A stretch of DNA of 41,992 bases, taken from positions 1 to 41,992 of IMG/VR virus record IMGVR_UViG_3300027971_000088, one strand, 5' to 3'. This document shows, piece by piece, positions 393-41,356 of this stretch (positions are counted from its first letter, which is position 1; each line of letters starts with the position of its first letter). The notes under the pieces are model-generated. The model saw only the letters and a program-made list of their open reading frames with translations, ran no database searches and was not told the DNA's origin. Made by a program: the position numbers and the translations under genes. This DNA comes from a virus.

Positions 393-413
393 CTTTTTTT
401 AAGGACTTTTTTC

Positions 414-1622: not shown

Positions 1623-1648
1623 TTAATTATTTTTGAAGGAAAATTATC

Positions 1649-2071: not shown

Positions 2072-2076
2072 ACCTG

Positions 2077-2096
2077 AATGGGGCTTCGGCCCCGTT
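2077..2096 (+). promoter_or_regulatory. UUCG-tetraloop hairpin between head genes
   Basis: GGGGC-TTCG-GCCCC (2080-2093) forms a perfect 5-bp stem closed by a highly stable UUCG loop. Flanking A-T and G-T pairs can extend the stem to 2077-2096. The identical element is found at 37699-37718. No T-run follows directly, so it is a poor intrinsic terminator. It could mark an RNA-processing or mRNA-stability element that adjusts head-protein ratios. The downstream ribosome site AAGGAA lies outside the stem. Confidence 0.75.
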
Positions 2097-2112
2097 CTAT
2101 AAGGAAATAATT

Positions 2113-2553: not shown

Positions 2554-2555
2554 GA

Positions 2556-2584
2556 GGAAGGGGAGGCCAAAAACCTCCTCTTTC
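2556..2584 (+). promoter_or_regulatory. Hairpin containing the only Shine-Dalgarno-like sequence before the 2589 gene
   Basis: An 11-bp stem (2556-2566 with 2574-2584, two G-T pairs) has a 7-base A-rich loop. Its 5' arm is a purine run with AGGAAGGGGAGG, the only strong ribosome-binding sequence before the ATG at 2589. That sequence is too far from the start unless the stem is folded or bypassed. At the other copy (38178-38206) the changes convert one G-C to G-T and one G-T to G-C, so the stem is preserved. No T-tract directly follows, so a regulatory or translational role fits better than termination. Confidence 0.6.
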
Positions 2585-2588
2585 ATTT

Positions 2589-2780
2589 ATGGAAATATAC
2601 CTCGCTCACCCCGTTCATGGCCGCAAAGTAGCGACTATGGAACTTGAAGCCGAATACGATGAAAAAAACGGCTGGACACGATATACTCTGGATACGCCCC
2701 AAGTCACCGAGGCGGCTCCTGTTAATGCGCTGGAAGTAAAGCGCAAATACATACGCAAAGCTATAGCTGAAGGAGCCTAG
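2589..2780 (+). CDS. Small charged protein, unknown
   Basis: This 63-residue hypothetical protein begins MEIYLAHPVHGRKVATMELE and is hydrophilic, with a basic C-terminus. It lies between the structural 146-residue gene and the gp4-like gene and ends two bases before the next ATG, so it is part of the head/neck operon. In the second copy (38211-38396) the last 10-12 residues differ: a KYIRK-type tail is replaced by an arginine-rich RRRTEPEGA tail with a 6-base deletion. The rest is almost unchanged. The function is unknown. Confidence 0.65.
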   Translation: MEIYLAHPVHGRKVATMELEAEYDEKNGWTRYTLDTPQVTEAAPVNALEVKRKYIRKAIAEGA

Positions 2781-2782
2781 TC

Positions 2783-3499
2783 ATGGCGACATACACCGCT
2801 GGCGATCAGATTAACCGAGCACTAAGATTGCTTGGTGTCCTTGCTGAAGGCGAGACTACATCTGCGTCAGTGTCGCAAGACTCTCTGACCGCGCTCAACC
2901 AGATGATTGATAGCTGGAACACTGAACGTCTGTCGGTGTTCAGCACCCAAGACCAAATGTTTACTTGGCCCGCTGGTTTTATCAACCGCACCCTTGGTCC
3001 AACAGGCAACTTTGTAGGCAACCGCCCCGTGCTGCTGGATGACGCAACCTACTACCGCGACCCAGGCACCAACGTCAGTTTTGGCATAAAAATGATCAAC
3101 CAGCAGCAGTACGACGGTATTGCTGTCAAAACGGTAACGTCAACTTACCCGCAAGTTATTTTTGTCAACATGACATATCCTGATATTGATATGTTCATCT
3201 ACCCCAAGCCCACACGGGACTTGGAATGGCACTTTATCAGCGTTGAAGAGTTGACCCAGCCTGCTAACTTGGCGACTAACATCCTGTTTCCACCTGGTTA
3301 CTTGCGTGCTTTCACCTACAACTTAGCCTGCGAAATTGCACCTGAGTTTGGCGTAGAGCCTAGCCCCCAAGTTCAGCGCATTGCCATGACCAGCAAGCGC
3401 AACCTCAAGCGCATCAACAACCCTGACGATGTGATGTCTATGCCTTACGCCATTGTGGCGACTCGTCAACGCTTTAACATTTACGCAGGAAACTACTAA
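2783..3499 (+). CDS. Head-closure / tail accessory factor, P22 gp4-like
   Basis: This 238-residue protein is inferred to sit under the portal and plug the filled head. Sequence and position match the gp4-like packaged-DNA stabilisation family. The N-terminal helices (QINRALRLLGVLAEGET, residues 9-25) and the segment ALNQMIDSWNTERLSVFS are typical of this family. The central beta part contains DDATYYRDPG, and the end is helical and basic. The second copy at 38399 differs by only a few residues. The neighbouring gp10-like gene supports the assignment. Confidence 0.82.
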   Translation: MATYTAGDQINRALRLLGVLAEGETTSASVSQDSLTALNQMIDSWNTERLSVFSTQDQMFTWPAGFINRTLGPTGNFVGNRPVLLDDATYYRDPGTNVSFGIKMINQQQYDGIAVKTVTSTYPQVIFVNMTYPDIDMFIYPKPTRDLEWHFISVEELTQPANLATNILFPPGYLRAFTYNLACEIAPEFGVEPSPQVQRIAMTSKRNLKRINNPDDVMSMPYAIVATRQRFNIYAGNY

Positions 3500-3500
3500 T

Positions 3501-4100
3501 ATGGCTACCATTGCAATTTCAGCTCTCCCCGTCGCAACTGCGGCTGCCGTTGGTGATGTCTTGCCAATTGTGCAAGGCGGCACAACTAAACAGGTCACTA
3601 ACGCACTGCTGTTTACTAATGCAACGTTGGTTGCGCCTGCGCTTGGTACTGTTGCAAGCGGCAACATTAGTGCTTGTACCAGCACCAGTATGGTCATGGT
3701 TACGCCAGTAATCGGTGCAGCTACAGGCACAAGCCTAGCGGTAACTGGTGCAATCACTTCATCTGGCACGGCTGGCGTAGGCTATGCCACAGGCGCAGGC
3801 GGCGCGGTTACACAATTGACTAGCCGTACTACAGGCGTAACGCTTAACAAGACAGCAGGCGCAATCACTCTATTCAGCGCAGCAGGAACAACAACGGCGG
3901 CAACTTTTACTGTAACCAACAGCACTGTGGCGGCAACCGATGTAATTATCTTAAATCAAAAGTCAGGTACTGACTTGTACAACTTAATGGTCACTGCGGT
4001 GGCAGCGGGCAGTTTTAATATTTCATTTCGCACCACAGGCGGCACGACAACTGAAACTCCAGTGTTTAACTTTGCGGTTATCAAAGCAGTTGCGGCTTAA
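3501..4100 (+). CDS. Structural protein with repeated beta domain
   Basis: I place the start at the ATG at 3501, directly after the gp4-like stop at 3499. A longer in-frame form would overlap that gene. The 199-residue protein has an N-terminal part beginning ATIAISALPVATAAAVGDVL, which resembles the collar/fibre start seen in many phage tail proteins. Its C-terminal 100 residues are paralogous to the protein at 2113. Low-complexity Thr/Ala/Gly composition suggests a beta-rich fibrous protein. Its ATG-to-stop edge overlaps the next gene (TAATG). The exact location in the virion is unknown. Confidence 0.72.
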   Translation: MATIAISALPVATAAAVGDVLPIVQGGTTKQVTNALLFTNATLVAPALGTVASGNISACTSTSMVMVTPVIGAATGTSLAVTGAITSSGTAGVGYATGAGGAVTQLTSRTTGVTLNKTAGAITLFSAAGTTTAATFTVTNSTVAATDVIILNQKSGTDLYNLMVTAVAAGSFNISFRTTGGTTTETPVFNFAVIKAVAA

Positions 4101-5746
4101 TGAAAACGCCCATCCTTGGATCAGCGTATGTTGCCCGCAGTATCAACGCTGCGGACAACCGCATGGTCAACTTGTTTCCCGAGGCCATCCCAGAGGGTGG
4201 TAAGGAACCTGGCTTTCTAAACCGTGCCCCTGGCCTAGAGTTTTTACAGACCGTGGGCACCGGCCCAATTCGGGCGCTGTGGGCGCACCAGACCAATGGA
4301 AGTGATTTTTTTGTTGTTTCGGGCAATAAAGTCTACAAGCTAACCGGCCTAACTGCTACGCCGCAGTTGTTGGGTACGCTCACCACTACCACCGGCCCTG
4401 TGTCCATTGCGGATAACGGAACGCAAATATTCTTTGCTACCAACCCTGATGGGTTTATATACAACAAAACTACGGGCGCGTTTGGGCAGATTACTGACCC
4501 TGATTTTGCTGGTGCTGTAACGGTTACTTACCTTGACGGGTACTTTGTTTTTAACCAGCCCGATAGCCAGATTATTTGGGTGACTCAATTGCTAGACGGC
4601 ACTTCAATTGACCCGTTAGACTTTGCAAGCGCCGAAGGTTCGCCTGATGGTGTGGTAGGTCTTATTTCTGACCACCGCGAACTATGGGTCTTTGGCACCG
4701 ACTCAGTAGAAGTCTGGTACGACTCAGGCGCTACTGATTTTCCATTGCAACGCATCCAAGGCGCGTTTAATGAGATCGGTTGCGTGGCTGCATTCTCAAT
4801 TGCCAAGCTAGACAACGGCCTGTTCTGGCTGGGCACCGACGCCCGTGGGCAGGGCATCGTCTACCGCGCCAATGGTTATACCGGCGTTAGGGTTTCTACC
4901 CATGCCATTGAGTACGCCATAGCCCAATACGGCAACATTGCGGATGCCATTGCGTACACCTACCAGCAAGAAGGCCATGCCTTTTATGTGCTGACGTTTC
5001 CCTCGGGCAACGCTACTTGGGTTTACGATGTGTCCACCCAAGTCTGGCATGAACGCGCCGGTTTTGATAACGGCAATTTTATGCGGCACCGCAGCAATTG
5101 CCAGTGTAATTTTGGCGGCAACATTATTGTTGGTGACTTTGAAAACGGCAACATCTATCGGTTTGACTTAGATGTGTACGCTGACAATAACGGCATTCAA
5201 AAGTGGCTGCGCTCATGGCGGGCGCTGCCAACCGGCCAAAACAATCTCAAGCGCACCGCGCATCACAGCTTGCAGTTGGACTGCGAAACAGGCGTGGGGC
5301 TAAACCTTTACCCTGCGTATGAAGGTGAAAATATTGATACTGAGTCAGGCTTAGACCTTGTAGCTGAATATGTACAAACGTTTTTAGCAACGCAATCAGG
5401 TGTTACTTTAACTACTGAGGCTGGGGACGGTTTTGAGCCTTTAGGCCAATACGAACTATCAGATACTGATATTAACGGATACAACTTAGTGACCATAGCT
5501 TATCCGGCTGCACCAGGCTACGACCCGCAAGTAATGTTGCGTTGGTCAGACGATGGCGGCCACACTTGGAGCAATGAGCACTGGTCGCCACTTGGCAAAA
5601 TTGGTGCGTATGGTCATCGAACTTTTTGGCGCCGTCTGGGCATGACTATGAAGTTGCGCGACAGGGTGTATGAACTTTCAGGCACCGATCCAAACAAGAT
5701 AGCAATCATGGGCGCAGAATTAATACTTAGCCCGACCAACGCATGA
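4100..5746 (+). CDS. Tail hub / packaged-DNA stabilisation protein, P22 gp10-like
   Basis: This 548-residue protein corresponds to the family of P22 gp10, which assembles below gp4 and anchors the tail machine. Family marks include the start KTPILGSAYVARSINAADNR, the nearby MVNLFPE, a beta-rich body with DNGTQIFFA, WVTQLLDGTSIDPLDFASAE and EVWYDSGATDFPLQRIQGAFNEIGC (split here only for length), and the late RWSDDGGHTWSNEHW segment. The second copy (39716) is two residues shorter and highly similar except for a divergent patch at about residues 55-120. It starts on the last A of the previous stop codon (TAATG). Confidence 0.88.
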   Translation: MKTPILGSAYVARSINAADNRMVNLFPEAIPEGGKEPGFLNRAPGLEFLQTVGTGPIRALWAHQTNGSDFFVVSGNKVYKLTGLTATPQLLGTLTTTTGPVSIADNGTQIFFATNPDGFIYNKTTGAFGQITDPDFAGAVTVTYLDGYFVFNQPDSQIIWVTQLLDGTSIDPLDFASAEGSPDGVVGLISDHRELWVFGTDSVEVWYDSGATDFPLQRIQGAFNEIGCVAAFSIAKLDNGLFWLGTDARGQGIVYRANGYTGVRVSTHAIEYAIAQYGNIADAIAYTYQQEGHAFYVLTFPSGNATWVYDVSTQVWHERAGFDNGNFMRHRSNCQCNFGGNIIVGDFENGNIYRFDLDVYADNNGIQKWLRSWRALPTGQNNLKRTAHHSLQLDCETGVGLNLYPAYEGENIDTESGLDLVAEYVQTFLATQSGVTLTTEAGDGFEPLGQYELSDTDINGYNLVTIAYPAAPGYDPQVMLRWSDDGGHTWSNEHWSPLGKIGAYGHRTFWRRLGMTMKLRDRVYELSGTDPNKIAIMGAELILSPTNA

Positions 5747-20224: not shown

Positions 20225-20271
20225 GCGTTAGACTAACGCGCCGGTGGGTTGATCTCCACCGGCTTTTTTTT
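20225..20271 (+). terminator. Double-hairpin intrinsic terminator
   Basis: GCGTTA-GAC-TAACGC (20225-20239) is followed at once by GCCGGTGG/CCACCGGC (20240-20263) and eight Ts (20264-20271). The second is a textbook intrinsic terminator closing the early unit after the SSB-like gene. The first stem may add pausing. Confidence 0.93.
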
Positions 20272-20290
20272 CCCCTCAAAAAAGTACAAC

Positions 20291-21247
20291 ATGAACAACA
20301 TTGAATTTGGCGATTGCAGGGCAACAATGCGGCGCTGGAAAGAGCAAGGAATCAAGGCGCAGACTTGCGTTACCAGCCCTCCGTACTACGGATTACGGGA
20401 CTATGGACATGAAGGGCAGATTGGGCTGGAAGAAACACCGGAGGAATACATCAAGGCTATGGTCGAGGTGTTTCGATGCGTATGGGATGTGCTGGAAGAC
20501 GATGGGACGCTGTGGCTAAACATTGGCGATAGCTACCACAACACAAACCCCGGCAGCGGTGGTAAGTGCGTGCTTCCTGGTGCTGGCAAAGCTATGACCG
20601 AAGGCCGCTATCACACTGGAAAGCGCAGCTTTAACGGGTCGGATGTAAAACCAAAAGACCTTATCGGCATTCCTTGGCTGCTGGCGTTTGCACTTCGCGC
20701 AGATGGCTGGTATCTACGTCAGGACATCATCTGGCACAAGCCAAACCCGATGCCTGAATCGGTGCAAGACCGATGCACTAAAGCGCATGAATACATTTTT
20801 CTGATGAGCAAATCGCAGAAGTATTACTACGATTCCGACGCGATTAAGGAGGCCAGCTCTGATCCAGAAGGAAGCGCCAATAGATACAAAACTCCTTTCT
20901 TTGCTGGCGAGAAGCATGAAAGCGGTGGGTATTCAATTACTGGCGCTACCCACACTAAAGGAATGAAAGAGTTTGATGGGAGCAGAAACAAGCGCAGCGT
21001 TTGGACAGTAAACGTAAAGCCTTACGCTGGCGCACACTTTGCCGTGTTCCCATCAGACTTGATTGAGCCTTGCATCCTTGCTGGCGCACCAGTAGGCGGC
21101 ATTGTGCTTGACCCGTTTATGGGCAGCGGGACAACGGGACAGGTAGCACAAAACCTTGGTCGGCAATACATTGGCTGTGAATTGAACATTGACTACAAAC
21201 CGCTGCAAGACAAGCGTCTGGCGCAGCAATCTTTAATATTGGAATAG
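20291..21247 (+). CDS. DNA methyltransferase, TSPPY (beta-type) class
   Basis: The start at 20291 (MNNIEFGDCR) is preferred because a longer start at 20249 would reach into the terminator. The 318-residue protein carries the catalytic TSPPYYGLRDYG motif (28-39) early and the AdoMet-binding DPFMGSGTT motif (about 274-282) near the end, the order of beta-class N4-cytosine or N6-adenine methyltransferases. No restriction enzyme lies beside it, so self-protection from host restriction or regulation by methylation is likely. The recognition site is unknown. Confidence 0.88.
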   Translation: MNNIEFGDCRATMRRWKEQGIKAQTCVTSPPYYGLRDYGHEGQIGLEETPEEYIKAMVEVFRCVWDVLEDDGTLWLNIGDSYHNTNPGSGGKCVLPGAGKAMTEGRYHTGKRSFNGSDVKPKDLIGIPWLLAFALRADGWYLRQDIIWHKPNPMPESVQDRCTKAHEYIFLMSKSQKYYYDSDAIKEASSDPEGSANRYKTPFFAGEKHESGGYSITGATHTKGMKEFDGSRNKRSVWTVNVKPYAGAHFAVFPSDLIEPCILAGAPVGGIVLDPFMGSGTTGQVAQNLGRQYIGCELNIDYKPLQDKRLAQQSLILE

Positions 21248-21249
21248 TG

Positions 21250-23259
21250 ATGCCAGACACAGAAACAATAGCTAAGGCGCTGGGCAACGCCAAGCAGGTT
21301 AACGGGCAGTGGGTGTGCTCATGCCCCGTACCTGGTCACGGCAGAGGGAACGGCGACAAGAACCCTAGTCTCTCCATAACTGAAAGTGATGGCAGGGTCC
21401 TGTTCCACTGTCACGGCGGCTGCGACCAGAGGGACGTGTTCGACGCTGTCAGGGCTAGGGACTTGCTGCCCACTACGCCAAAGCGGGAAGAAATCAGCTT
21501 TACCCAGCACCAGGACAAGGTACTGGAAAAGGAATGGGTGTACCGCGCAGAGGACGGCACTGAACTGTTTACCAAGCGCCGATATAAGACTAATGATGCC
21601 AAGGGTAAGACATACTCTATTCACCGCGTGGATGCCGCGGGGAAGCGGATAGCGGGGATAAAGGACACCAGAATTGTTCCCCTCAATTTGCCCGAGATTA
21701 TTGAGGCAAAGCAATCAGGCCGAGCCATCTACCTAGTTGAAGGCGAGAAGGCAGCGGACGCGCTAACAAGTATTGGCGCCATTGCAACGACAAGTCACAC
21801 TGGTGCAGGGTCATGGCCGACGGAGATTACGCAATACTTTGCAGGCGCCAATGTCGTGGTAATTCCTGACAATGACCAGCCAGGAATATCTTACGCTAAA
21901 CGCGCAATTGCTCACCTATTACCCGTGGTTAAGTCAATTCGATACCTTGACCTTGGATTGATGATGGAGGGCGATGACGCTTACGAGTGGGTATATCACG
22001 CAAAAGGTACGCGCAAGGAACTGGCGGAGATGGCCAAGCAGGCGCCGGTTATCACTCAGCAAACGCCTGTAACGGATAGCGAACAATCAATAGAAACAAC
22101 GCAAACAGAACAAGAAGCCTTTAACCCGACCCCGCAACTTCTCAACATCGAGGCTTGGGACACCATCAAGGACGAGCCTGTCAGGTGGATCATCAAGAAC
22201 GTGCTGCCGGAGAAGGGTTTTGGTGCCCTGTACGGGCCGCCAGGTAGCTACAAGTCATTTATTGCGCTGGACATAGCCGAGGCGGTGGCCACAGGACGCC
22301 AGTGGATGGGTAACCAAGTTACGAACCCTGGCGCCGTTCTCTACATAGCGGGTGAAGGTCATGGCGGTATCGGGGCGCGTATCAAGGCTTGCAAGATCAA
22401 CCACCAGACGCAGGACGGGGCCGAAATCTACGTCATACGCTACCAGCTCAACCTGAGATCAAGCGCAGACGACTTTAACCTGCTGATGCAGTCCATTGAC
22501 AACTTAATAGAGCGCACGGGCATAGAGCTGCGCCTGGTCCAGATAGATACCCTAGCCAGAGCCTTCGGCGGCGGCAACGAGAACGACAGCCAGGACATGG
22601 GCGCATTCATCCATAACGCAGGCCGGCTGCAACGCAAACTCAACTGCGCCTTGATGGTTTTGCACCACTCAGGCAAGGACGCCACCAAAGGATTGCGCGG
22701 TCACAGCTCACTCTTAGGAGCAGTGGATACCCAACTAGAACTGCAAAAGTTGGAGCAAACAGACCACAAGGAAGGCGTCGCAGGCCAAGGAATTCTCACC
22801 ATAAGTAAGCAAAAGGACGGTCAGGACAATTTAAAGTTTGGGTTTGAGATGGTCCAGATCAACATCAACCAGGACAAGGAAAGCGGACTTGGGCTGGACG
22901 AGAACGTATCGCTGGCGGTCAGGGAACAACAGGAAAACATCGACCAGCAGCACAAGAAACCCAAGGTTCCACCGCCAAGGACAGGGGCTGGTGGCGTCCA
23001 AAAGGTGGCAATTGACGCACTGCACAAGGCAATTGGAGAGCATGGAGAGATGCGTTTAATTGACGGAAAGCGCAATAAATCGATCCACGTGGAACAGTGG
23101 ATGGAGGCTTTTTCAGCCGCCCAAACCGACAAAACAGGCATCAAAAGGCGCTTTACAAGGTGCGTGCAGAGCCTTCAGAACGCCAAAAGGGTGGAGGTTT
23201 TTGATCCGTTTGTTTGGGTGATTTGGAGCGATGGTGACCAAAATGATAGCGACTTTTAG
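21250..23259 (+). CDS. Primase-helicase fusion protein
   Basis: This 669-residue protein starts at ATG 21250, or one codon earlier at GTG 21247. It begins with a zinc-binding primase domain (Cys23, Cys25, His30, Cys54, Cys58), followed by a TOPRIM core (VEGEKAAD 163-170; PDND 206-209). Next comes a RecA-like ATPase with Walker A GPPGSYKS (329-336) and Walker B LVQID (429-433). It would lay down primers and unwind DNA at the fork. With no phage polymerase in the window, the host replicase must do synthesis. The iteron-like array lies directly downstream. Confidence 0.88.
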   Translation: MPDTETIAKALGNAKQVNGQWVCSCPVPGHGRGNGDKNPSLSITESDGRVLFHCHGGCDQRDVFDAVRARDLLPTTPKREEISFTQHQDKVLEKEWVYRAEDGTELFTKRRYKTNDAKGKTYSIHRVDAAGKRIAGIKDTRIVPLNLPEIIEAKQSGRAIYLVEGEKAADALTSIGAIATTSHTGAGSWPTEITQYFAGANVVVIPDNDQPGISYAKRAIAHLLPVVKSIRYLDLGLMMEGDDAYEWVYHAKGTRKELAEMAKQAPVITQQTPVTDSEQSIETTQTEQEAFNPTPQLLNIEAWDTIKDEPVRWIIKNVLPEKGFGALYGPPGSYKSFIALDIAEAVATGRQWMGNQVTNPGAVLYIAGEGHGGIGARIKACKINHQTQDGAEIYVIRYQLNLRSSADDFNLLMQSIDNLIERTGIELRLVQIDTLARAFGGGNENDSQDMGAFIHNAGRLQRKLNCALMVLHHSGKDATKGLRGHSSLLGAVDTQLELQKLEQTDHKEGVAGQGILTISKQKDGQDNLKFGFEMVQININQDKESGLGLDENVSLAVREQQENIDQQHKKPKVPPPRTGAGGVQKVAIDALHKAIGEHGEMRLIDGKRNKSIHVEQWMEAFSAAQTDKTGIKRRFTRCVQSLQNAKRVEVFDPFVWVIWSDGDQNDSDF

Positions 23260-23291
23260 GGCGTTTTATTGCTTACGTAATTGGCAATGGG

Positions 23292-23455
23292 ACAAATGGG
23301 ACAAATGGACGGGACAAATGGACGATTGAGAGGAAAAACGTCAAAATGGTACAAATGGACAAATGGGACAAATGGAGGACAAATGGAAGACAAATGGATG
23401 GACAAATGGACAAAATGGTCAATAAGCATCAATTTGGCGAGAATGGGACAAATGG
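23292..23455 (+). repeat. Iteron-like array of ACAAATGG, candidate replication origin
   Basis: The 8-mer ACAAATGG occurs exactly ten times in direct orientation (starts at 23292, 23301, 23314, 23351, 23359, 23368, 23379, 23390, 23402 and 23448). Nine of the ten are preceded by G. One further copy has an extra A (23410-23418) and an inverted copy lies at 23481-23488. Most neighbours are 8-13 bases apart, near one helical turn. Arrays of this kind bind replication initiators in plasmid and phage origins. The region is free of convincing genes and follows the primase-helicase gene. Origin function is inference. Confidence 0.7.
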
Positions 23456-23494
23456 GAGAGCGTATTCTTTATATACGCTCCCATTTGTCCCATT
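23442..23494. repeat. 22-bp interrupted inverted repeat carrying iterons on both arms
   Basis: AATGGGACAAATGGGAG (23442-23458) pairs perfectly with its complement at 23478-23494. A 2-base bulge (AG, 23459-23460) and an inner stem CGTAT/ATACG (23461-23465 with 23473-23477) follow, around a 7-base loop. The outer stem contains one iteron in each direction. It could be the dyad of the origin or a bidirectional transcription stop after the primase gene. Confidence 0.8.
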
Positions 23495-23521
23495 TCCAAA
23501 TGCCCGAAAAGGCGGTGCCAA

Positions 23522-24163
23522 GTGGTGACTAAAAAACTTAAATCTTTGGCGATTACTCAGCCGACCATGCCAGCATATCCAGCGGATAAGTTTGAGGTGT
23601 TTAAAAACGCTGTCATGGTGGAGCTGGCAAACCGAAAGAATACCCATGATGCGAAGTGGGGTATTGATAGGCTGGTTTGGTTGGTGGATACCGAGCTGCG
23701 GGAAAAGGTGTGGCTGCAACTGGAGCGGGTTTGGCAGGCCCAAGAAGAACGCAACGATGAAAAGCTGGACAAGGCGGTCAGGGGTATGTGCAAGGCTTAC
23801 GATGCGATGGAGGCTTGGGCTGGTGCCAACAACGTATCAGAACTGCCTAATCTGCGACAGATTGAGCACCAGCAGGCAGATGGTACTGTTTTCGTTATCG
23901 TGCCAGATGAGGCCTCTAAACGGCTTTACTGCCAGCAGTGGCCATGCTCCACGGACAGGGAAGTCTGGACGGCAGCAGAGATTGCGATAATCATGGCACG
24001 CCAGGCAGATGGCAAAATCAGCGAGATCAAGCGACAATGGCCTGACAGCAAACTGGTTAAGGTCGGTGGGCCTAGCGGGTTTGAGGATATGGAAAACGAT
24101 CTGGATATGACGACACCAAGCAAACTGCCCAAGCTGTTCGACACTAAAGCGTTTGTGCGGTAA
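23522..24163 (+). CDS. Unknown protein next to the iteron array
   Basis: This 213-residue hydrophilic protein starts at a GTG (23522) with AAAGG upstream. A later ATG at 23567 is possible. The middle is helical with many Trp (DAKWGIDRLVWLVDTELREK, then WLQLERVWQAQEE), and the C-terminal part has ADGTVFVIVPDEASKRLYCQ and a helix-like WTAAEIAIIMARQ segment. I do not recognise the family. Its place between the iterons and the small terminase gene makes it a candidate iteron-binding initiator, but no DNA-binding motif is certain. Confidence 0.6.
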   Translation: MVTKKLKSLAITQPTMPAYPADKFEVFKNAVMVELANRKNTHDAKWGIDRLVWLVDTELREKVWLQLERVWQAQEERNDEKLDKAVRGMCKAYDAMEAWAGANNVSELPNLRQIEHQQADGTVFVIVPDEASKRLYCQQWPCSTDREVWTAAEIAIIMARQADGKISEIKRQWPDSKLVKVGGPSGFEDMENDLDMTTPSKLPKLFDTKAFVR

Positions 24164-24233
24164 GTGGGGATAGGTAAGGTTATGCGCTTTTTGCATAGAT
24201 TTTTAACGATTACGCACACGCATGAGGGTAATG

Positions 24234-24752
24234 ATGAAGACTTTGGCTGAAAAGACGACAAAAAACGGTGCAATCATGGGCAGACCAGCGAAATGGCCAC
24301 CGGAGCATCCAGTTTGGCTTGAGATCGTGGGCCAGGTGTCCAGCGGCAAGGCGCTATCGACGGTGCTGCGCCAGGACGATATGCCAACGTGGGTCAGCTT
24401 TCATGCAATGGTGGCGCAAGATGCCAAGATAGCCGCGGCCTACGAGAAGGCCGTACAAGACCGCGCAGACCGGCTGGCTGACGAGATACTGCAACTGTCG
24501 GACGAGCCTATGCCAGAGGGCTTAGAGGGCGCTATGGCTAGTGCCTGGGTGCAGCAGAAGCGTATGCAAGTGGATGCGCGTAAGTGGATCGCGTCCAAGC
24601 TGAAGCCGCGCACTTACGGTGACCGCATTGACATGACGGTGAGGGACGAGCGCATCAGCGTGATCGACGCGCTTGAGGCAGCCAAGGCACGGGTGCTGAC
24701 GCTGGACAACGTAACCGATGTCACCCCGCGTCCTGTTGATAACCCTGTCTGA
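24234..24752 (+). CDS. Terminase small subunit
   Basis: The start at 24234 is favoured because GAGGG (24224-24228) sits 5 bases before it, overlapping the more distant ATG at 24222. The 172-residue protein contains MGRPAKWPPEHP, an HTH-like segment with SSGKALSTVLRQDDMPTWVS, an acidic helix with RADRLADEILQLSDE, and a basic RKWIASKLKPRTYGDRI segment. These are features of phage terminase small subunits that recognise genome DNA for packaging. The large subunit follows after 201 bases. Confidence 0.83.
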   Translation: MKTLAEKTTKNGAIMGRPAKWPPEHPVWLEIVGQVSSGKALSTVLRQDDMPTWVSFHAMVAQDAKIAAAYEKAVQDRADRLADEILQLSDEPMPEGLEGAMASAWVQQKRMQVDARKWIASKLKPRTYGDRIDMTVRDERISVIDALEAAKARVLTLDNVTDVTPRPVDNPV

Positions 24753-24953
24753 TTCTGCTCTACTTTATACGACAGGCATTATGTTAAGTTGTTAGGCCTG
24801 TGCAATACCTGTGGATAACCCTACCCACCGGCCTTGTCCGCTGGCCCTGCCGCGCCCGACCCCCCCCGGGTAGGGCCGGCGGCAAATGGCCACGGAAACG
24901 GCACGTCCACGAACAATTTTTATTTTTTTTAAAACCTTAACCAAGAAACCACT
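24753..24953. other. Terminase intergenic region with DnaA box and GC-rich dyad
   Basis: This 201-base gap contains a perfect DnaA-box match TGTGGATAA (24810-24818), directly followed by CCCTACCC (24819-24826), whose exact complement GGGTAGGG lies at 24868-24875. Between them is very GC-rich DNA with a run of eight Cs (24860-24867). A T-rich and A-rich stretch precedes the large-subunit start. No protein-like frame was seen. Packaging start sites often lie at or near terminase genes, so a pac/cos function is possible. This is inference. Confidence 0.45.
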
Positions 24954-26477
24954 ATGCAACTGCCCATCTACCGAGGTGAAGAGGAACAGAAGCTGATGAC
25001 CGAGTTATGGTCACCGGCTGTTGCGGATGACTTGGAAGCGTTTGTGATGTATGCTTTTCCTTGGGGCGTGAAGAACACGCCGTTGGCGCGGTTTACAGGC
25101 CCGAGGAAGTGGCAGCGGGAGGTGCTGCGGGATGTGACTGAGCACATTAAGGCGCAGCAGGGCAAGGTTAACTTTGACACTATTAGGGAAGCAGTATCCA
25201 GCGGACGAGGTATTGGCAAGTCAGCGCTTGTTAGTTGGCTGGTTCTTTGGATGCTGACCACCCGCATTGGCGGCTCGGTGGTGGTTAGCGCGAACAGCGA
25301 GAATCAGTTGAGGTCGGTGACCTGGGCCGAGTTGACTAAGTGGTCAGCGATGTTGATTAACTCGCACTGGTGGGAGATAAGCGCGACCAAGCTGGTGCCT
25401 GCCAAGTGGTTGACTGACATTGTTGAGAAGGACTTGAAGAAGGGCACCAGGTACTGGGCCTGCGAGGGCAAGCTGTGGTCGGAGGAGAATCCTGACAGTT
25501 ACGCTGGTGTGCATAACCAAGACGGCATGATGCTGATCTTTGACGAGAGTAGCGGCATACCAGATGCGATCTGGGATGTGGGCGCAGGATTCTTTACCGA
25601 GAACACGCCGGACAGGTACTGGTTTGCGTTCTCCAATCCGCGGCGCAACAGCGGGTATTTTTTTGAGTGCTTTAACGCCAAGAGAGCGTTTTGGAAGTCG
25701 CGGGTAGTGGACGCTAGGACGGTGGAGGATACCGATAAGGCGGTGTACGAGCAAATTATTGCTGAGTATGGCGAGAACTCCAGCCAGGCCAAGATTGAGG
25801 TTTACGGAGAGTTTCCCTCGGCTGGGGAAGATCAGTTCATTGGGCCGACGTTGGTTGATGATGCCATGAAGAGGCCTAAGTACAAGGATATGACAGCTCC
25901 CATTATTGTGGGGGTTGACCCAGCTAGGGGCGGCGCCGATGCGACTGTGATTGTTGTGAGGCAGGGGCGCGACCTGGTGGCCATCAAGCGTTACCAGGGC
26001 GAAGATACTATGACCATAGTGGGCAGGGTAATTGAGGCCATTGAGGAATACAAGCCGACCTTGACGGTGATTGATGAGGGAGGGCTGGGGTACGGGATAC
26101 TTGACCGGCTGACCGAGCAGCGGTATAAAGTTCGAGGGATTAACTTTGGGAATAAGGCCAAGCACCCGATTGCGTTTGGCAATAAACGCGCTGAAATGTG
26201 GAATGATATGAGGAACTGGTTAAAATCTGCTAGTATTCCTACTGACAGGCAGTTGAGGGCAGATTTAACTGGGCCGGCTAAGAAACCGGATTCTTCGGGT
26301 ACTATTTTCCTAGAGGGGAAAAAAGAGATGAGAGCAAGAGGGTTAGCATCGCCGGACGCCGCTGACGCGCTGTGCGTGACGTTTGCTTTTCCTGTTGCTC
26401 ACCGCGAGTATACTGAGCCGTCCCGCAGGATTAATTCGCAGGGCAGCAGTTCAAACACTTCATGGATGGGTTCATGA
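24954..26477 (+). CDS. terL: Terminase large subunit (ATPase-nuclease)
   Basis: This 507-residue motor pumps DNA into the prohead and cuts it. Walker A is SGRGIGKS (83-90) and Walker B MLIFDE (193-198). The nuclease domain shows Asp322 in VGVDPARGG, Asp374 in TVIDEGG and Asp468/Asp471 in PDAADAL, the expected acidic triad. The length is usual. It follows the small subunit, and its stop overlaps the next small gene (ATGA). Confidence 0.95.
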   Translation: MQLPIYRGEEEQKLMTELWSPAVADDLEAFVMYAFPWGVKNTPLARFTGPRKWQREVLRDVTEHIKAQQGKVNFDTIREAVSSGRGIGKSALVSWLVLWMLTTRIGGSVVVSANSENQLRSVTWAELTKWSAMLINSHWWEISATKLVPAKWLTDIVEKDLKKGTRYWACEGKLWSEENPDSYAGVHNQDGMMLIFDESSGIPDAIWDVGAGFFTENTPDRYWFAFSNPRRNSGYFFECFNAKRAFWKSRVVDARTVEDTDKAVYEQIIAEYGENSSQAKIEVYGEFPSAGEDQFIGPTLVDDAMKRPKYKDMTAPIIVGVDPARGGADATVIVVRQGRDLVAIKRYQGEDTMTIVGRVIEAIEEYKPTLTVIDEGGLGYGILDRLTEQRYKVRGINFGNKAKHPIAFGNKRAEMWNDMRNWLKSASIPTDRQLRADLTGPAKKPDSSGTIFLEGKKEMRARGLASPDAADALCVTFAFPVAHREYTEPSRRINSQGSSSNTSWMGS

Positions 26478-35252: not shown

Positions 35253-36014
35253 ATGTCAGAAGAAAACCTAGCGGTAGTAGACCCCGCGCCGGAACAGGTG
35301 GCAACGGCTGCACCTGAAACCGAAGTTATTGCGCCGGAAGCAGAAGCACCCAAGACATTCTCGCAAGAGGAACTTGATGCAGCTATTGGAAAACGCCTCG
35401 CAAGAGAGCAACGAAAGTGGGAACGGGAACAAGCACAGAGGACTGCGGAAACGCAAACCTTGAGGGCTCCGGCAGCACAGTCTGTCGATCAGTTTGAAAC
35501 GCCAGAGGCTTACGCCGATGCGTTGGCCTATCAAAAGGCCGAACAATTGATCGCGCAGCGCGAAGCGGCCAAGCAGCACTCGCAAGTTCTTGAGAGTTAT
35601 CACGATCTGGAAGAGGAAGCCCGCGCTAAGTATGATGACTTTGAACAAGTCGCATACAACCCCAAGTTGCCAATTACTGATGTGATGGCCGATACGATTC
35701 GGTCTTCGGATGTTGGGCCTGAGTTAGCTTACTACCTTGGAACTAACCCCAAAGATGCAGAGCGTATATCTCGCCTAGCCCCGCTTGCACAGGCAAAGGA
35801 AATTGGGAAGATTGAGGCCAAATTGGCGTCTGATCCACCAATGAAACGTACGACATCCGCGCCAGCGCCGATTTCGCCTGTTACTGCCCGATCCACTGGA
35901 TCACCGGCTTATGACACTACAGACCCCAGGTCAGATAAGACCATGACGGCCTCGCAGTGGATTGAAGCCGAAAGGGCACGACAACGGAAGAAGTGGGAAG
36001 CGCAAAACCGCTAA
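35253..36014 (+). CDS. Scaffolding protein (complete)
   Basis: This 253-residue protein directs coat assembly and leaves before maturation. The start at 35253 (MSEENLAVVDPAPEQVATAA) is preferred over a GTG at 35220 inside the hairpin leader. It has an acidic N-terminus, a central charged helical region with KRLAREQRKWEREQAQRTAE and a Lys/Arg/Trp-rich C-terminus for coat binding. It lies directly before the coat gene. The last 130 residues match the partial copy at 1-392. Confidence 0.85.
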   Translation: MSEENLAVVDPAPEQVATAAPETEVIAPEAEAPKTFSQEELDAAIGKRLAREQRKWEREQAQRTAETQTLRAPAAQSVDQFETPEAYADALAYQKAEQLIAQREAAKQHSQVLESYHDLEEEARAKYDDFEQVAYNPKLPITDVMADTIRSSDVGPELAYYLGTNPKDAERISRLAPLAQAKEIGKIEAKLASDPPMKRTTSAPAPISPVTARSTGSPAYDTTDPRSDKTMTASQWIEAERARQRKKWEAQNR

Positions 36015-36035
36015 CTTTTTTTAAGGACTTTTTTC

Positions 36036-37244
36036 ATGGCTAATAGTATCCTAACCATTGACATGATTACTCGGAAGGCTCTCGAAATCCTCGAGAACAA
36101 CCTGGTAATCACTCGTAACGTAAACCGTCAGTACGACGACAGCTTTGCTGTTGAAGGTGCCAAGATTGGTTCTACTCTGCGTATTCGCCTCCCTGACCGC
36201 GCTTTGGTCACTGACGGTGCCGCCCTGCAAGTTCAGGACGACAACGAGCAGTTCACCACTTTGACTGTCGCCTCGCAAAAGCATATCGGCGTGAACTTCA
36301 CTTCCGCTGAATTGACCATGCAGTTGGACGACTTTGCAGAGCGTGTATTGAAACCACGTATCAGCCAGTTGGCCTCCAGCATTGATGCTGACGTTGCTAA
36401 CTGCTTTAAGACTATTGGTAACACTGTCGGCACTCCAGGCACTACGCCAGCTACTTCTTTGGTTTTGTTGCAAGCGCAGCAAAAGCTGAACGAAAACGCT
36501 GCTGTAATGTCGCCCCGCTATGCAACGGTTAACCCCGCTGCAAACGCTGGCTTGGTTGAAGGCATGAAAGGTTTGTTTAATCCTACCGACACCGTGTCTC
36601 GCCAATTTAAAAACGGCATGATGGGCACTGGCGTGTTGGGTTTTGAAGAAATCAACATGAGCCAATCCATCAAGCAGTTCACCACTGGTTCGCGTGATGC
36701 TACGGCTGCTACCACGGTTGGCACCACGGTGACTACCGAAGGCTCTTCCACTTTGAGCCTGTCGCAAGCCTCGGTTACTACGACCATCAAGGCCGGTGAT
36801 GTCTTTACCATTGCAGCTTGCTCTTCTGTAAATCCGCAAACTCGTGAAACCACGGGTTCGTTGTTCCAGTTTGTGGCTTTGGCTGATGCTACTGCTGTCT
36901 CTGGCACTTGGACTGTGACTGTGGCTCCCATGTACTCCGCTGCTCACGCATTGGCTACCATGACTGCTCTGCCACAATCTAGCGCTGTTGTGACTTTCGT
37001 TGGCACCGCTTCTACTGCTTACGCACAGAACTTGGTTTACCACAAGGACGCCATTACGTTTGCTACTGCTGACTTGTTGCTGCCCCAGGGTGTTGACATG
37101 GCCGCCCGTGCGGTTCATAACGGAATCAGCTTGCGTGTCGTGCGCCAGTACGATATCAACAATGACCGTATGCCTTGCCGTATTGACGTACTGTATGGCT
37201 TTAGCACCATTCGTCCACAGATGGCTTGCCGCATCTGGGGTTAA
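36036..37244 (+). CDS. Major capsid protein, second copy
   Basis: This is the same 402-residue P22-type coat protein as at 414, with about 21 substitutions. Roughly half fall at residues 222-267, the threonine/serine-rich insert, where surface-exposed loops are expected. The upstream AAGGA ribosome site and spacer are identical in both copies. Most codon differences elsewhere are silent, indicating selection to keep the protein. Confidence 0.93.
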   Translation: MANSILTIDMITRKALEILENNLVITRNVNRQYDDSFAVEGAKIGSTLRIRLPDRALVTDGAALQVQDDNEQFTTLTVASQKHIGVNFTSAELTMQLDDFAERVLKPRISQLASSIDADVANCFKTIGNTVGTPGTTPATSLVLLQAQQKLNENAAVMSPRYATVNPAANAGLVEGMKGLFNPTDTVSRQFKNGMMGTGVLGFEEINMSQSIKQFTTGSRDATAATTVGTTVTTEGSSTLSLSQASVTTTIKAGDVFTIAACSSVNPQTRETTGSLFQFVALADATAVSGTWTVTVAPMYSAAHALATMTALPQSSAVVTFVGTASTAYAQNLVYHKDAITFATADLLLPQGVDMAARAVHNGISLRVVRQYDINNDRMPCRIDVLYGFSTIRPQMACRIWG

Positions 37245-37270
37245 TCAATTCTTTTTAAAGGAAATTTATC

Positions 37271-37693
37271 ATGGCTATTCCTAATTCTGGCGGTGGATAT
37301 CAGTTTACTGATGGCAACACCAATGAAATCATCATGGGCGTTCAAGCAGCGCCTAATACGGCGACTGCTACGGCCACTCTGACCGTTGCACAAACCACGG
37401 GCGGTATCTTGGTGGGCAATCCGTCTACCACAGCGGCAACCTACACGTTCCCAACTGCTGCGGCAATTGATGCGGTGTTCACCAACGCAAAAGTTAACAG
37501 CACGTTTGATTTGACAGTTATTAATTTAGGCACTTCAACTGGCCTAATTACTATGGCTGTGGGAACTGGCATTACTGCGGTTGGCAACTTGGTTGTTGCT
37601 ATTACTGGCAGTGCGGCAGGTGTGAGTGGCGCGGGACAATTCTTGTTCCGCAAGACCGGCGATGCTGCATACACTGTGTATCGCATAGCCTAA
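37271..37693 (+). CDS. Small head-associated protein, second copy
   Basis: This 140-residue counterpart of the gene at 1649 has a few conservative changes in the first 100 residues (for example QVTGG to QTTGG) and an unchanged end. It supports that the frame is a real gene, because the substitutions are mostly silent. Function unknown. Confidence 0.72.
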   Translation: MAIPNSGGGYQFTDGNTNEIIMGVQAAPNTATATATLTVAQTTGGILVGNPSTTAATYTFPTAAAIDAVFTNAKVNSTFDLTVINLGTSTGLITMAVGTGITAVGNLVVAITGSAAGVSGAGQFLFRKTGDAAYTVYRIA

Positions 37694-37698
37694 ACCTG

Positions 37699-37718
37699 AA
37701 TGGGGCTTCGGCCCCGTT
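37699..37718 (+). promoter_or_regulatory. UUCG-tetraloop hairpin, second copy
   Basis: GGGGC-TTCG-GCCCC (37702-37715) is identical, with its flanks, to the element at 2077-2096, although surrounding genes have diverged. The bases from the end of the preceding gene through the ribosome site are unchanged, which suggests the structure is under selection. Confidence 0.75.
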
Positions 37719-37734
37719 CTATAAGGAAATAATT

Positions 37735-38175
37735 ATGGCAAATACAAAATCTATTGGTGTTGCTTTTGAAGACCAAGACCTCAAAGGTTCAGCAACAATT
37801 TATGCCCTTGCTGGAAGTGGGCAGCTTGGATATAACACTGGAAGTTCTACTACGGCGCCTTCAACTGTTACTCAAGCTACAAGCAAATCTACTGGCGTAA
37901 CTATTAACGCGTCTGTTGGTCAAATTGTGACAAACAATGCTGCTTTGGCCGCCGGTGTTGAAGTAGCTTTTGTTGTGACAAATAGTGCGGTAAGTGCCTA
38001 TGATGTTCCAATTGTGGCATTAGCAAGCGGCGCAGCCACGGCGGGAACGTATTTGCTTTCGGTGGCCGCTGTCGCTGCCGGATCATTTACCGTAGTAATT
38101 TCAAATGCATCCGCAGGCAGCTTGTCTGAGGCGCTGACTTTGAATTTTGCTTTGATTCACGTTGCACAAGCGTAA
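37735..38175 (+). CDS. Small structural protein, second copy
   Basis: This 146-residue counterpart of the gene at 2113 has one amino-acid change (Ile to Val) and about 14 base changes in 441, by my count. It is the most conserved gene of the repeat and carries the beta domain shared with the gene at 39117. Confidence 0.77.
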   Translation: MANTKSIGVAFEDQDLKGSATIYALAGSGQLGYNTGSSTTAPSTVTQATSKSTGVTINASVGQIVTNNAALAAGVEVAFVVTNSAVSAYDVPIVALASGAATAGTYLLSVAAVAAGSFTVVISNASAGSLSEALTLNFALIHVAQA

Positions 38176-38177
38176 GA

Positions 38178-38206
38178 GGAAGGGGAGGTCAAAAACTTCC
38201 CCTTTC
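38178..38206 (+). promoter_or_regulatory. Ribosome-site hairpin, second copy
   Basis: This is the counterpart of 2556-2584. The 5' purine arm is identical while the 3' arm has two pairing-preserving changes, keeping all 11 pairs. This supports a real RNA structure before the 63-residue gene. Confidence 0.62.
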
Positions 38207-38210
38207 ATTT

Positions 38211-38396
38211 ATGGAAATATACCTCGCTCACCCCGTTCATGGCCGCAAAGTGGCGACTATGGAACTTGAAGCCGAATACGATGAACAAAACGGCTGGACA
38301 CGATATACTCAGGATACGCCCCAAGTCACCGAGGCGGCTCCTGTTAACGCACTGGAAGTAAAGCGCCGTCGTAGAACCGAACCCGAAGGAGCCTAG
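38211..38396 (+). CDS. Small charged protein, second copy
   Basis: This 61-residue counterpart of the gene at 2589 is the same up to about residue 51. It then has an arginine-rich tail (RRRRTEPEGA) in place of the KYIRKAIAEGA-type tail. The tail swap and the 6-base indel are the only length changes before the gp10-like gene. Confidence 0.65.
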   Translation: MEIYLAHPVHGRKVATMELEAEYDEQNGWTRYTQDTPQVTEAAPVNALEVKRRRRTEPEGA

Positions 38397-38398
38397 TC

Positions 38399-39115
38399 AT
38401 GGCGACATATACCGCTGGCGAACAGATTAACCGAGCACTAAGATTGCTTGGTGTGCTGGCTGAAGGCGAAACTACTTCTGCTTCAGTGTCGCAAGATAGC
38501 TTGATGGCGCTAAACCAAATGATTGATAGCTGGAATACTGAGCGGCTGTCGGTGTTCAGCACTCAAGACCAGGTGTTTACTTGGCCTGCTGGCTTTATCA
38601 ACCGTACCCTTGGCCCAACAGGCAATTTCGTAGGCAACCGGCCCATCTTGCTGGATGACGCGACCTACTACCGCGACCCAGGCACCAACGTCAGCTTTGG
38701 CATAAAAATGATCAATCAGCAGCAGTACGATGGTATTGCTGTTAAGACGGTTACGTCTACGTACCCGCAAGTGCTGTTTATCAACATGACGTATCCTGAT
38801 GTGGATATGTACATATACCCCAAGCCCACACGGGACTTGGAGTGGCACTTTATCAGCGTTGAAGAGTTAACCCAGCCTGCCAACTTGGCGACCAATATCT
38901 TGTTCCCGCCGGGTTACTTGCGTGCCTTTACCTACAACTTGGCTTGCGAGATCGCACCTGAGTTTGGCGTGGAGCCCAGCCCCCAAGTGCAGCGCATTGC
39001 TATGACCAGCAAGCGCAATCTGAAACGCATCAACAACCCTGACGATGTGATGTCTATGCCTTACGCCATTGTGGCGACTCGTCAACGCTTTAACATTTAC
39101 GCAGGAAACTACTAA
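38399..39115 (+). CDS. Head-closure protein, P22 gp4-like, second copy
   Basis: This 238-residue counterpart of the gene at 2783 differs by a few conservative residues (for example DQMFTW to DQVFTW), with many silent changes. The strong protein conservation agrees with a contact-rich neck protein between portal and tail hub. Confidence 0.82.
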   Translation: MATYTAGEQINRALRLLGVLAEGETTSASVSQDSLMALNQMIDSWNTERLSVFSTQDQVFTWPAGFINRTLGPTGNFVGNRPILLDDATYYRDPGTNVSFGIKMINQQQYDGIAVKTVTSTYPQVLFINMTYPDVDMYIYPKPTRDLEWHFISVEELTQPANLATNILFPPGYLRAFTYNLACEIAPEFGVEPSPQVQRIAMTSKRNLKRINNPDDVMSMPYAIVATRQRFNIYAGNY

Positions 39116-39116
39116 C

Positions 39117-39716
39117 ATGGCAACTATCGCAATCTCATCTCTTCCCGTCGCAACTGCTGCTGCCGTTGGTGATGTCTTGCCAATTGTGCAAGGTGGCACC
39201 ACAAAACAGCTTACCAACGCGCTGCTGTTTACCAGCCCCACATTGGTGACGCCCGCTTTGGGTACGGTTGCCAGTGGCAATATCAGCGCTTGTACTAGCA
39301 CCAGTATGGCTATGGTTACGCCTGTAATCGGTGCAGCTACAGGCACAAGTCTAGCGGTAACTGGTGCAGTCACTTCATCTGGCACGGCTGGTGTAGGCTA
39401 TGCCACAGGCGCTGGCGGTGCGGTTACACAATTAACTAGCCGCACCACGGGCGTAACGCTTAACAAGACGGCAGGCGCAATTACTATGTTTAGCGCGGCA
39501 GGAACAACGACGGCGGCAACTTTTACTGTGACCAACAGCACTGTGGCGGCGACTGATGTTGTCATCTTGAATCAAAAGTCAGGCACTGACTTGTACGACT
39601 TGATGGTCACTGCGGTGGCAGCGGGTAGTTTTAACATCACATTCCGCACCACTGGCGGCACGACTACAGAAACGCCCGTATTTAACTTTGCGGTTATCAA
39701 AGCAGTTGCGGCTTAA
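39117..39716 (+). CDS. Structural protein with beta domain, second copy
   Basis: This 199-residue counterpart of the gene at 3501 starts at the ATG directly after the gp4-like stop. Substitutions are few and scattered. The C-terminal domain keeps all positions shared with the 146-residue protein, supporting a common fold. Confidence 0.72.
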   Translation: MATIAISSLPVATAAAVGDVLPIVQGGTTKQLTNALLFTSPTLVTPALGTVASGNISACTSTSMAMVTPVIGAATGTSLAVTGAVTSSGTAGVGYATGAGGAVTQLTSRTTGVTLNKTAGAITMFSAAGTTTAATFTVTNSTVAATDVVILNQKSGTDLYDLMVTAVAAGSFNITFRTTGGTTTETPVFNFAVIKAVAA

Positions 39717-41356
39717 TGAAAACGCCCATCCTTGGTTCAACCTATGTAGCACGTAGCGTCAATGCTGCGGATGCCCGCATGGTGAACCTGTTTCCCGAGA
39801 TCGTGCCAGAGGCAGGCAAGGAACCAGGCTTTCTAAACCGAGCGCCTGGCTTGAACTTACTTTCAACGGTAGGCACCGGCCCCGTTCGAGGGTTGTGGGC
39901 GTTTTCATCTAACGACAGCACGGCCTTTGTGGTGTCGGGCACCGAGTTGTACAAAATTACTACTGCGTACGCTGCTACGCTGATTGGCACCGTAGCTGGC
40001 ACCGGCCCTGTCAGTTTGGCCGACAATGGCACTCAGTTGTTTATTGCGGCCAATGGCCCGAGTTACATATATAACAACACCACAAACGTTTTTGGTCAGA
40101 TCACTGACCCTGACTTCCCCGGCGCTGCAACTGTCTGTTACCTAGACGGCTACTTTGTGTTCAACCAACCAAACAGCCAATTGATGTGGGTAACTCAGTT
40201 GCTGGACGGCACATCCATTGACCCGCTAGAGTTTGTCAGCACCGAAGGCTCACCTGATGGTCTACTGGCCGTAACGTCCAACTTCCGCGAGGTGTGGGCC
40301 TTTGGCACAAACTCGATTGAGGTTTGGTACGACTCTGGCGCTACAGACTTCCCCCTGCAACGCATCCAAGGCGCGTTTAACGAGTTAGGCTGCGCGGCTC
40401 CCTTTTCTATAGCCAAGATGGACAACGGCATTTTTTGGCTTGGCCGCGACCGCCGGGGTCAAGGTATTGTCTACCGCGCCAACGGCTATTCGGGCGTTCG
40501 CATTTCTACTCATGCTGTTGAGTGGCAGATTCAGCAATACGCTGATTTGACGGACGCTATTGCGTACACATACCAGCAAGACGGCCACAGTTTTTATGTG
40601 CTGATTTTCCCTAGCGCCAACACCAGTTGGGTCTATGACGCGGCAACGCAAGCTTGGCATGAGCGTGCGGGCTTTGACAATGGTGAATTTACCCGCCACC
40701 GCAGTAACTGCCAAATGGCGTTCAACAACAAGATTGTCGTTGGCGACTTTGAGAACGGCAACATCTATGCGTTTGATTTGGACGATTATTCGGACAATGG
40801 CAGCATTCAAAAGTGGTTGCGCTCATGGCGGGCGTTGCCAACCGGCCAAAACAATTTGAAGCGTACGGCGCATCACAGCCTGCAACTGGACTGCGAAACA
40901 GGTGTGGGACTAAATCTGTACCCTGGGTACGACAGCGAAAATATTGACACTGAGTCAGGGTTAGACCTTGTAGCTGAATACGTACAGACGTTTTTAACAA
41001 CGCAATCGGGTGTTACTTTAACTACCGAGGCCGGGGACGGTTTTCAGCCTTTAGGTCAATACGAACTGTCGGATACCGATATTAGTGGGTACAACTTAGT
41101 AACCACGTCTTATCTTGCTGCACCCGGTTACGACCCTGAAGTCATGCTGCGCTGGTCAGATGACGGCGGTCATACTTGGAGCAACGAACACTGGTCGCCA
41201 GTTGGCAAAATTGGTGCGTATGGTCACCGAACTTTTTGGCGTCGGTTGGGCATGACTTTAAAGCTGCGTGACCGTGTGTACGAACTGTCAGGCACTGACC
41301 CTGTAAAAATTACAATCATGGGCGCTGAACTCATTTTGAGTCCAACAAATGCCTAG
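39716..41356 (+). CDS. Tail hub protein, P22 gp10-like, second copy
   Basis: This 546-residue counterpart of the gene at 4100 is highly similar from about residue 125 to the end. The front (residues 55-120) is clearly more diverged, with a 2-residue length change. Its last bases overlap the next start (ATG at 41349), unlike the first copy, where the fibre starts after the stop. Confidence 0.88.
   Translation: MKTPILGSTYVARSVNAADARMVNLFPEIVPEAGKEPGFLNRAPGLNLLSTVGTGPVRGLWAFSSNDSTAFVVSGTELYKITTAYAATLIGTVAGTGPVSLADNGTQLFIAANGPSYIYNNTTNVFGQITDPDFPGAATVCYLDGYFVFNQPNSQLMWVTQLLDGTSIDPLEFVSTEGSPDGLLAVTSNFREVWAFGTNSIEVWYDSGATDFPLQRIQGAFNELGCAAPFSIAKMDNGIFWLGRDRRGQGIVYRANGYSGVRISTHAVEWQIQQYADLTDAIAYTYQQDGHSFYVLIFPSANTSWVYDAATQAWHERAGFDNGEFTRHRSNCQMAFNNKIVVGDFENGNIYAFDLDDYSDNGSIQKWLRSWRALPTGQNNLKRTAHHSLQLDCETGVGLNLYPGYDSENIDTESGLDLVAEYVQTFLTTQSGVTLTTEAGDGFQPLGQYELSDTDISGYNLVTTSYLAAPGYDPEVMLRWSDDGGHTWSNEHWSPVGKIGAYGHRTFWRRLGMTLKLRDRVYELSGTDPVKITIMGAELILSPTNA

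Follow-up and report, generated by a model that had tools for sequence, protein, structure and literature searches.

What is the function of a tight cluster of short direct repeats that lies directly behind the helicase-primase gene of a virus? The question is raised by the record IMGVR_UViG_3300027971_000088, which was analysed over its full 41,992 nt (the window). A first-pass annotation had read the cluster as an iteron array and a candidate new replication origin, and had pointed to the 213-residue protein encoded behind it (p213) as the possible initiator. The start and the end of the contig show homology (window 1-5719 and 35623-41329: 90% over 4.3 kb, followed by 79% over 1.3 kb). The record looks like about 1.2 genome lengths and is probably a circularly permuted genome of ~35.6 kb, with an overlap from two co-occurring strains.

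The repeat array and the palindrome

The locus has the following features (window coordinates, strand):

21247..23259, +, helicase-primase, 670 aa: zinc-binding/Toprim primase part, RepA-type (AAA_25) hexameric helicase, predicted C-terminal winged helix (Pfam, PHROG, 1g8y)
22969..23226, +, predicted winged-helix domain, codons 575-660, proposed repeat reader (tracks repeat type; AF2; Foldseek)
23292..23299, +, iteron 1, exact copy of ACAAATGG
23301..23308, +, iteron 2, exact copy
23314..23321, +, iteron 3, exact copy
23351..23358, +, iteron 4, exact copy
23359..23366, +, iteron 5, exact copy
23368..23375, +, iteron 6, exact copy
23379..23386, +, iteron 7, exact copy
23390..23397, +, iteron 8, exact copy
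23402..23409, +, iteron 9, exact copy
23410..23418, +, degenerate iteron ACAAAATGG, a variant with an inserted A
23425..23505, no strand, 81-nt palindrome (hairpin/cruciform; arms, fold, compensatory changes in relatives)
23448..23455, +, iteron 10, exact copy in the left arm of the hairpin
23481..23488, -, inverted iteron, exact copy in the right arm of the hairpin
23522..24163, +, p213, orphan protein family behind the array in relatives (no Pfam or PHROG match; no covariation with the repeats)
24222..24752, +, small terminase TerS (Sf6-type), used to test a packaging-site explanation

Exact copies of ACAAATGG occur ten times in direct and once in inverted orientation between 23292 and 23488 and nowhere else in the 41,992 nt, and the variant ACAAAATGG starts at 23410, which bears out the repeat count first reported. 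That such a density is implausible by chance was also upheld: the shuffle expectation for the entire window on both strands is 2.15 copies, with 8 as the largest number. When the window was scanned in stretches of 220 nt, an 8-mer was present in more than three copies only at the array, where up to ten were found. The direct copies start 9, 13, 37, 8, 9, 11, 11, 12 and 46 nt apart, so that the suggested spacing near one helical turn holds loosely for most of them (8-13 nt) and fails at the two larger gaps of 37 and 46 nt. The array starts ~30 nt behind the helicase-primase gene. Clustered direct repeats, unique in the genome and placed beside a replication gene, characterize iteron origins, and this combination is present here. 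A GC-skew peak had been proposed as a check; the skew of the window has neither a peak nor a minimum at the array, and no clearly AT-rich melting element was found in the array region. A search at the DNA level gave no match in isolated phages, and the bacterial genome collection gave none either.

Iteron 10 and the inverted iteron lie within the two arms of the palindrome, a feature absent from the first-pass annotation. The palindrome follows the array, the end of which lies partly inside it, and has inner arms of 24 nt (23442-23465 and 23471-23494) with the apex TCTTTAT at 23466-23472; within the family of the window the apex reads TCTTTA or TCTTA. Folded as single-stranded DNA, the 81-nt element reached z = -8.0 against shuffles. 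Rfam returned only sub-threshold matches to miRNA precursors, which we judged to be chance.

When IMG/VR was scanned with p213 (47 loci) and with the helicase-primase (52 loci) as queries, 39 distinct intergenic sequences were obtained. A search of relatives for the array had been called for earlier, and array and hairpin were indeed found at the same position in about 40 distinct relatives, with the order helicase-primase, array plus hairpin, p213 kept. The repeats of these relatives are of the kinds ACAAATGG, ACGRAATGG, AAAAATGG, GGCAAATGG and GCCAAATGG, with GTTACAAA or GTAACAAA in distant ones. One kind predominates within any one phage (arrays with GGCAAATGG or GCCAAATGG also contain ACAAATGG), and both hairpin arms usually switch along with the array repeats. 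Relatives of 33-38 kb that were searched have one cluster of the cognate repeat each, with foreign types near the level of chance. The length of the palindrome is nearly fixed in close relatives (80-83 nt), while that of the array varies.

The repeats are set in two array backbones with different spacers and hairpin cores, and ACAAATGG occurs on both. Hairpin pairs were counted on one backbone only, since MAFFT alignment of both backbones together misaligned the repeats. Across ten sequences of this backbone 96.9% of cells pair, and two-sided change is seen at 11 of the 32 hairpin pairs, a number reached in none of 500 shuffles (slid controls gave 0-2). Five of the 11 belong to the inverted repeat itself and go back to a single type switch. 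The remaining ones (columns 10/75, 12/73, 14/71, 24/64, 33/54 and 34/53) lie outside the inverted repeat or at its edge, and these argue for pairing as such, which may take the form of a DNA cruciform or of RNA.

The putative reader of the repeats

The helicase-primase begins with a zinc-finger-like motif, CPVPGH...HCHGGC, read from the sequence, and contains a DnaG/Toprim stretch. It matches Pfam AAA_25 (3.9e-41) and PHROG primase/helicase families, and RSF1010 RepA (1g8y) matches residues 308-481 (E 2.4e-5). The AF2 model of the C-terminal 107 residues has the order H-E-E-H-H-E-E with a core pLDDT of 81-89. The best PDB matches in Foldseek are mostly winged helices (cullin WHB, MCM, ORC) with probabilities up to 0.99 and E-values above 0.06; as these E-values are not significant, the matches are suggestive of a winged-helix fold for the model. 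Among viral proteins, the best matches (E 8e-6 and 3e-5) are to stretches the size of the C-terminus in other AAA/TOPRIM replication proteins of phages, and a PDB sequence search with the winged helix gave nothing meaningful. A DNA methyltransferase gene (window 20249-21247) directly precedes the helicase-primase gene and is found in few of the examined relatives.

Phages were grouped by repeat type, and identity was compared over windows of 30 residues in five proteins. At the C-terminus of the helicase-primase, identity is 0.78-0.80 within a type and drops to 0.39-0.45 between the ACAA and ACGR types and to 0.50-0.63 between ACAA and AAAA. No such fall was seen in 30-residue windows of p213, the SSB-like protein, the exonuclease or the remaining primase, and among the proteins tested nothing but the final ~90 residues of the helicase-primase (residues 575-660) tracks the type. 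An alignment set against the AF2 model places the type-specific residue differences in the third helix and the wing.

Linkage could be separated from repeat type by means of the two backbones. On the same backbone, C-termini of phages with ACAAATGG and with ACGRAATGG share 0.43-0.48 identity, while those of phages with the same repeat on different backbones share 0.78-0.80. With labels permuted within one backbone, the gap is 0.31-0.36 for the C-terminus (p 0.0002-0.0004) and 0.005-0.017 for p213 (p 0.27-0.42), p-values that are indicative only, because the sequences are related and independent type switches are few. The clear switches are ACAA-ACGR and ACAA-AAAA; the wing of GCCAAATGG and GGCAAATGG phages is close to the ACAA type. 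Identity of p213 is 0.78-0.79 between ACAA(II) and ACGR(II) and 0.79-0.81 between ACAA(I) and ACAA(II), and p213 is as near to the array as the primase gene, yet does not track the repeat type. Hitchhiking through physical linkage as the cause of the covariation is ruled out by the two-backbone comparison. The repeats are thus probably read by the predicted C-terminal winged helix of the helicase-primase and not by p213.

Competing explanations and similar loci in other phages

Taken together, we consider it likely that 23292-23505 is a replication origin at which the C-terminus of the helicase-primase would read repeats beside a palindrome. An iteron-type origin as first proposed is well supported by the conserved position, the concerted change, the covariation and the single cluster in each 33-38 kb relative; the part of the proposal that finds no support is p213. 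An initiator p213 that binds the repeats and loads the helicase-primase would explain why p213 always adjoins the array, and a distant p213 relative even lies behind the array in Roseobacter phage CRP-831 (L139:2693-3271, hhalign prob 95%). Its sequence, however, shows a negligible gap between repeat types compared with that of the C-terminus, its prediction is mainly helical and a fold search found no DNA-binding fold, which makes this role very unlikely. Matches to p213 were found neither in Pfam or PHROG nor in isolated phages; given the distant relative in CRP-831, proteins like p213 may be conserved companions of the replication module. The genes behind p213 are those for TerS and TerL, and the nearness of the array to them could suggest a packaging (pac) site recognized by the small terminase, whose gene lies 0.7 kb downstream. 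Terminase modules are swapped independently of repeat type, however: the same type occurs with two modules (TerL 0.96-1.00 vs about 0.30 identity to the window), the second of which has a TerS without detectable homolog, and one terminase occurs with different repeat types. A packaging site is therefore highly improbable. In the region of window 24222-26477, relatives have one of the two terminase modules (TerL ~0.30 identity between them) behind the same candidate origin and p213.

The array could also control transcription, with the repeats as operators, the hairpin as a late-gene terminator or promoter element and the helicase-primase as regulator. It is intergenic and precedes p213 and terS, and replication initiators often autoregulate too. 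Against this, scans found no promoter and no T-tailed terminator at the array or hairpin, and the replication gene precedes the array rather than following it. Since the reader would be the replicative helicase-primase, use as an origin is the simpler account, and we regard transcription control as unlikely, although it could be a second role of the array. An 83-aa frame runs open across the repeats in the window, the same 20-mer encodes GQM repeats in contigs L004, L008, L017, L038 and L039, and the contig ends share an assembly overlap, so a coding tandem repeat or an assembly artefact had to be considered. In relatives the intergenic region is 140-285 nt long, with lengths that are not multiples of three, and has stops in most frames; translation as a conserved protein, which the first-pass annotation had named as counting against an origin, is thus not what the repeats encode. 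An artefact is rejected by the occurrence of the array in many independent contigs and far from the overlap, and neither explanation retains any real likelihood. The five GQM contigs have seven perfect 9-nt tandem copies of ACAAATGGG in a 392-aa frame, and these coding copies apparently share the iteron sequence by coincidence.

Several other phages with RepA-type helicase genes have a layout similar to that of the candidate origin. Repeats of their own and a hairpin lie close behind this gene in Roseobacter phage CRP-831 (TGTATAAA), Idiomarinaceae phage 1N2-2 (GCGGTACATTT) and Rhizobium phage N65 (GGCGGAGAT), and two phages of the Vibrio collection have CGGACA repeats and a hairpin behind it, with one intervening gene in Vibrio phage 1.210.O. 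A Manatee Spring phage has the hairpin only, and no such repeats and hairpin were found behind the RepA-type gene of Caulobacter GB2A and Microcystis Mae-JY30. Among 95 metagenomic relatives of CRP-831 and 1N2-2, which are not all independent, 58 have an 8-mer at least four times within 350 nt behind the gene, compared with none in equally long stretches within the gene. A hairpin centred on CT(A/T)1-4AG is found behind the gene in 40 of the 95 loci (~24 distinct stems) and in none of them in 900 nt of gene body, which served as the control. These hairpins, in the regions downstream of L146-L258, have variable stems and a common CTTTAG/CTATAG apex, at which a primase might start. In the marine CRP-831 family, the largest gap between types (0.49 and 0.55 in two windows) is once more at the C-terminus, but it stands on a general gap of 0.18-0.36 elsewhere, and the covariation is less clean than in the family of the window.

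Phages with RepA-type helicases or helicase-primases could on this basis share a widespread origin class, a generalization that we offer tentatively and that might well prove too broad. Lineage-specific repeats would be read by a variable C-terminal winged helix, and a hairpin with a variable stem would keep the apex CT(T/A)(T/A)AG, which would engage a conserved part of the primase or helicase. Repeats and reader would drift together and form a private address by which the replicons of co-infecting relatives would be kept apart. The open-access literature searched contained no account of such a layout in phages with a RepA helicase. Intergenic GGGACA-type repeats with long palindromes were also seen behind ~580-aa genes without convincing Pfam match (L013, L031, L045) and beside other unassigned genes (L007, L029, L032), and these loci may represent origins of this kind that work with different replication proteins. 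In another phage group (L003, L034, L037, L041), GTGGGACAAATGGGACAAATGG repeats lie just before a small-terminase gene on the opposite strand (PF03592 in L003).

The proposed origin and known systems

For the firing of the origin in the window we infer the following order of events. Several copies of the helicase-primase would bind the ACAAATGG repeats through the C-terminal winged helix, a step supported by the covariation, and RepA-type helicase subunits would thereby be gathered beside the large palindrome. Local melting could be aided by extrusion of the hairpin with one repeat in each arm, and the melted site would offer the helicase ring and the Toprim primase, both parts of one polypeptide, a single-stranded point for entry and priming. 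A single protein would then serve as initiator, helicase loader, helicase and primase and would recognize DNA just behind its own gene, so that each phage lineage would carry a matched pair of reader and repeat.

The origins of most environmental phages are unknown, and here a candidate can be found from sequence behind a RepA-type helicase gene. Many matched DNA-reading domains and repeats exist in nature, some of them in close relatives, which makes the recognition rules of a winged helix, and a possible separation of co-infecting phages' replication by private repeats, directly testable.

The helicase of phage P4 belongs to the SF3 class. In P4 alpha, a Toprim primase, a helicase and a C-terminal winged helix that reads repeats are combined (PMC4234260). 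The window protein likewise has primase, helicase and predicted C-terminal winged helix in one chain, together with iterons. Unlike P4 alpha, it has no SF3 domain but a helicase of the RepA/RecA fold (AAA_25, RSF1010 RepA type), and a large hairpin with repeats in its arms; no homology between the winged helices was seen. In SaPI Rep and SCCmec Cch2 the helicase recognizes short repeats immediately behind its own gene through its C-terminal domain, and deletion of the inverted repeats left Cch2 binding unaffected (PMC7581432). The repeats behind the gene and the proposed C-terminal reader are shared with these systems, while the helicase family differs and the primase is fused only in the window protein.

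RSF1010 oriV (IncQ) is served by RepA, RepB' and RepC and has iterons, and hairpins for priming (PMC4234260). The RepA-type helicase (1g8y, E 2.4e-5), the iterons and the hairpin are common to both, but the work of three proteins there would be done by one here, and the primase type differs. A separate RepC iteron binder and RepB' primase are not part of the layout here, since the C-terminus of the same protein tracks the repeats and the DnaG/Toprim part is fused to it. ORF904 of pRN1 is a multifunctional replication protein with a C-terminal winged helix, and a ~100-nt stem-loop directly downstream, variable in sequence and conserved in structure, is needed for pRN1 replication; phage BIP-1 is named in the same context (PMC4234260). 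A multifunctional protein with a predicted C-terminal winged helix and a large conserved stem-loop directly behind its gene are likewise present in the window, but pRN1 has no iterons, and its archaeo-eukaryotic primase and SF3 helicase have no counterpart here.

As neither the SF3 helicase found in P4 and pRN1 nor the division among three proteins seen in RSF1010 is present, the element is filed under none of these systems. It joins iterons that are probably read by a C-terminus, as in SaPI and P4, with a stem-loop as in pRN1 and a RepA helicase as in RSF1010. The novelty claimed for the candidate origin holds for this phage group and not for the principle, which is known; what is new is a RepA-fold helicase fused to a Toprim primase at such a candidate origin.
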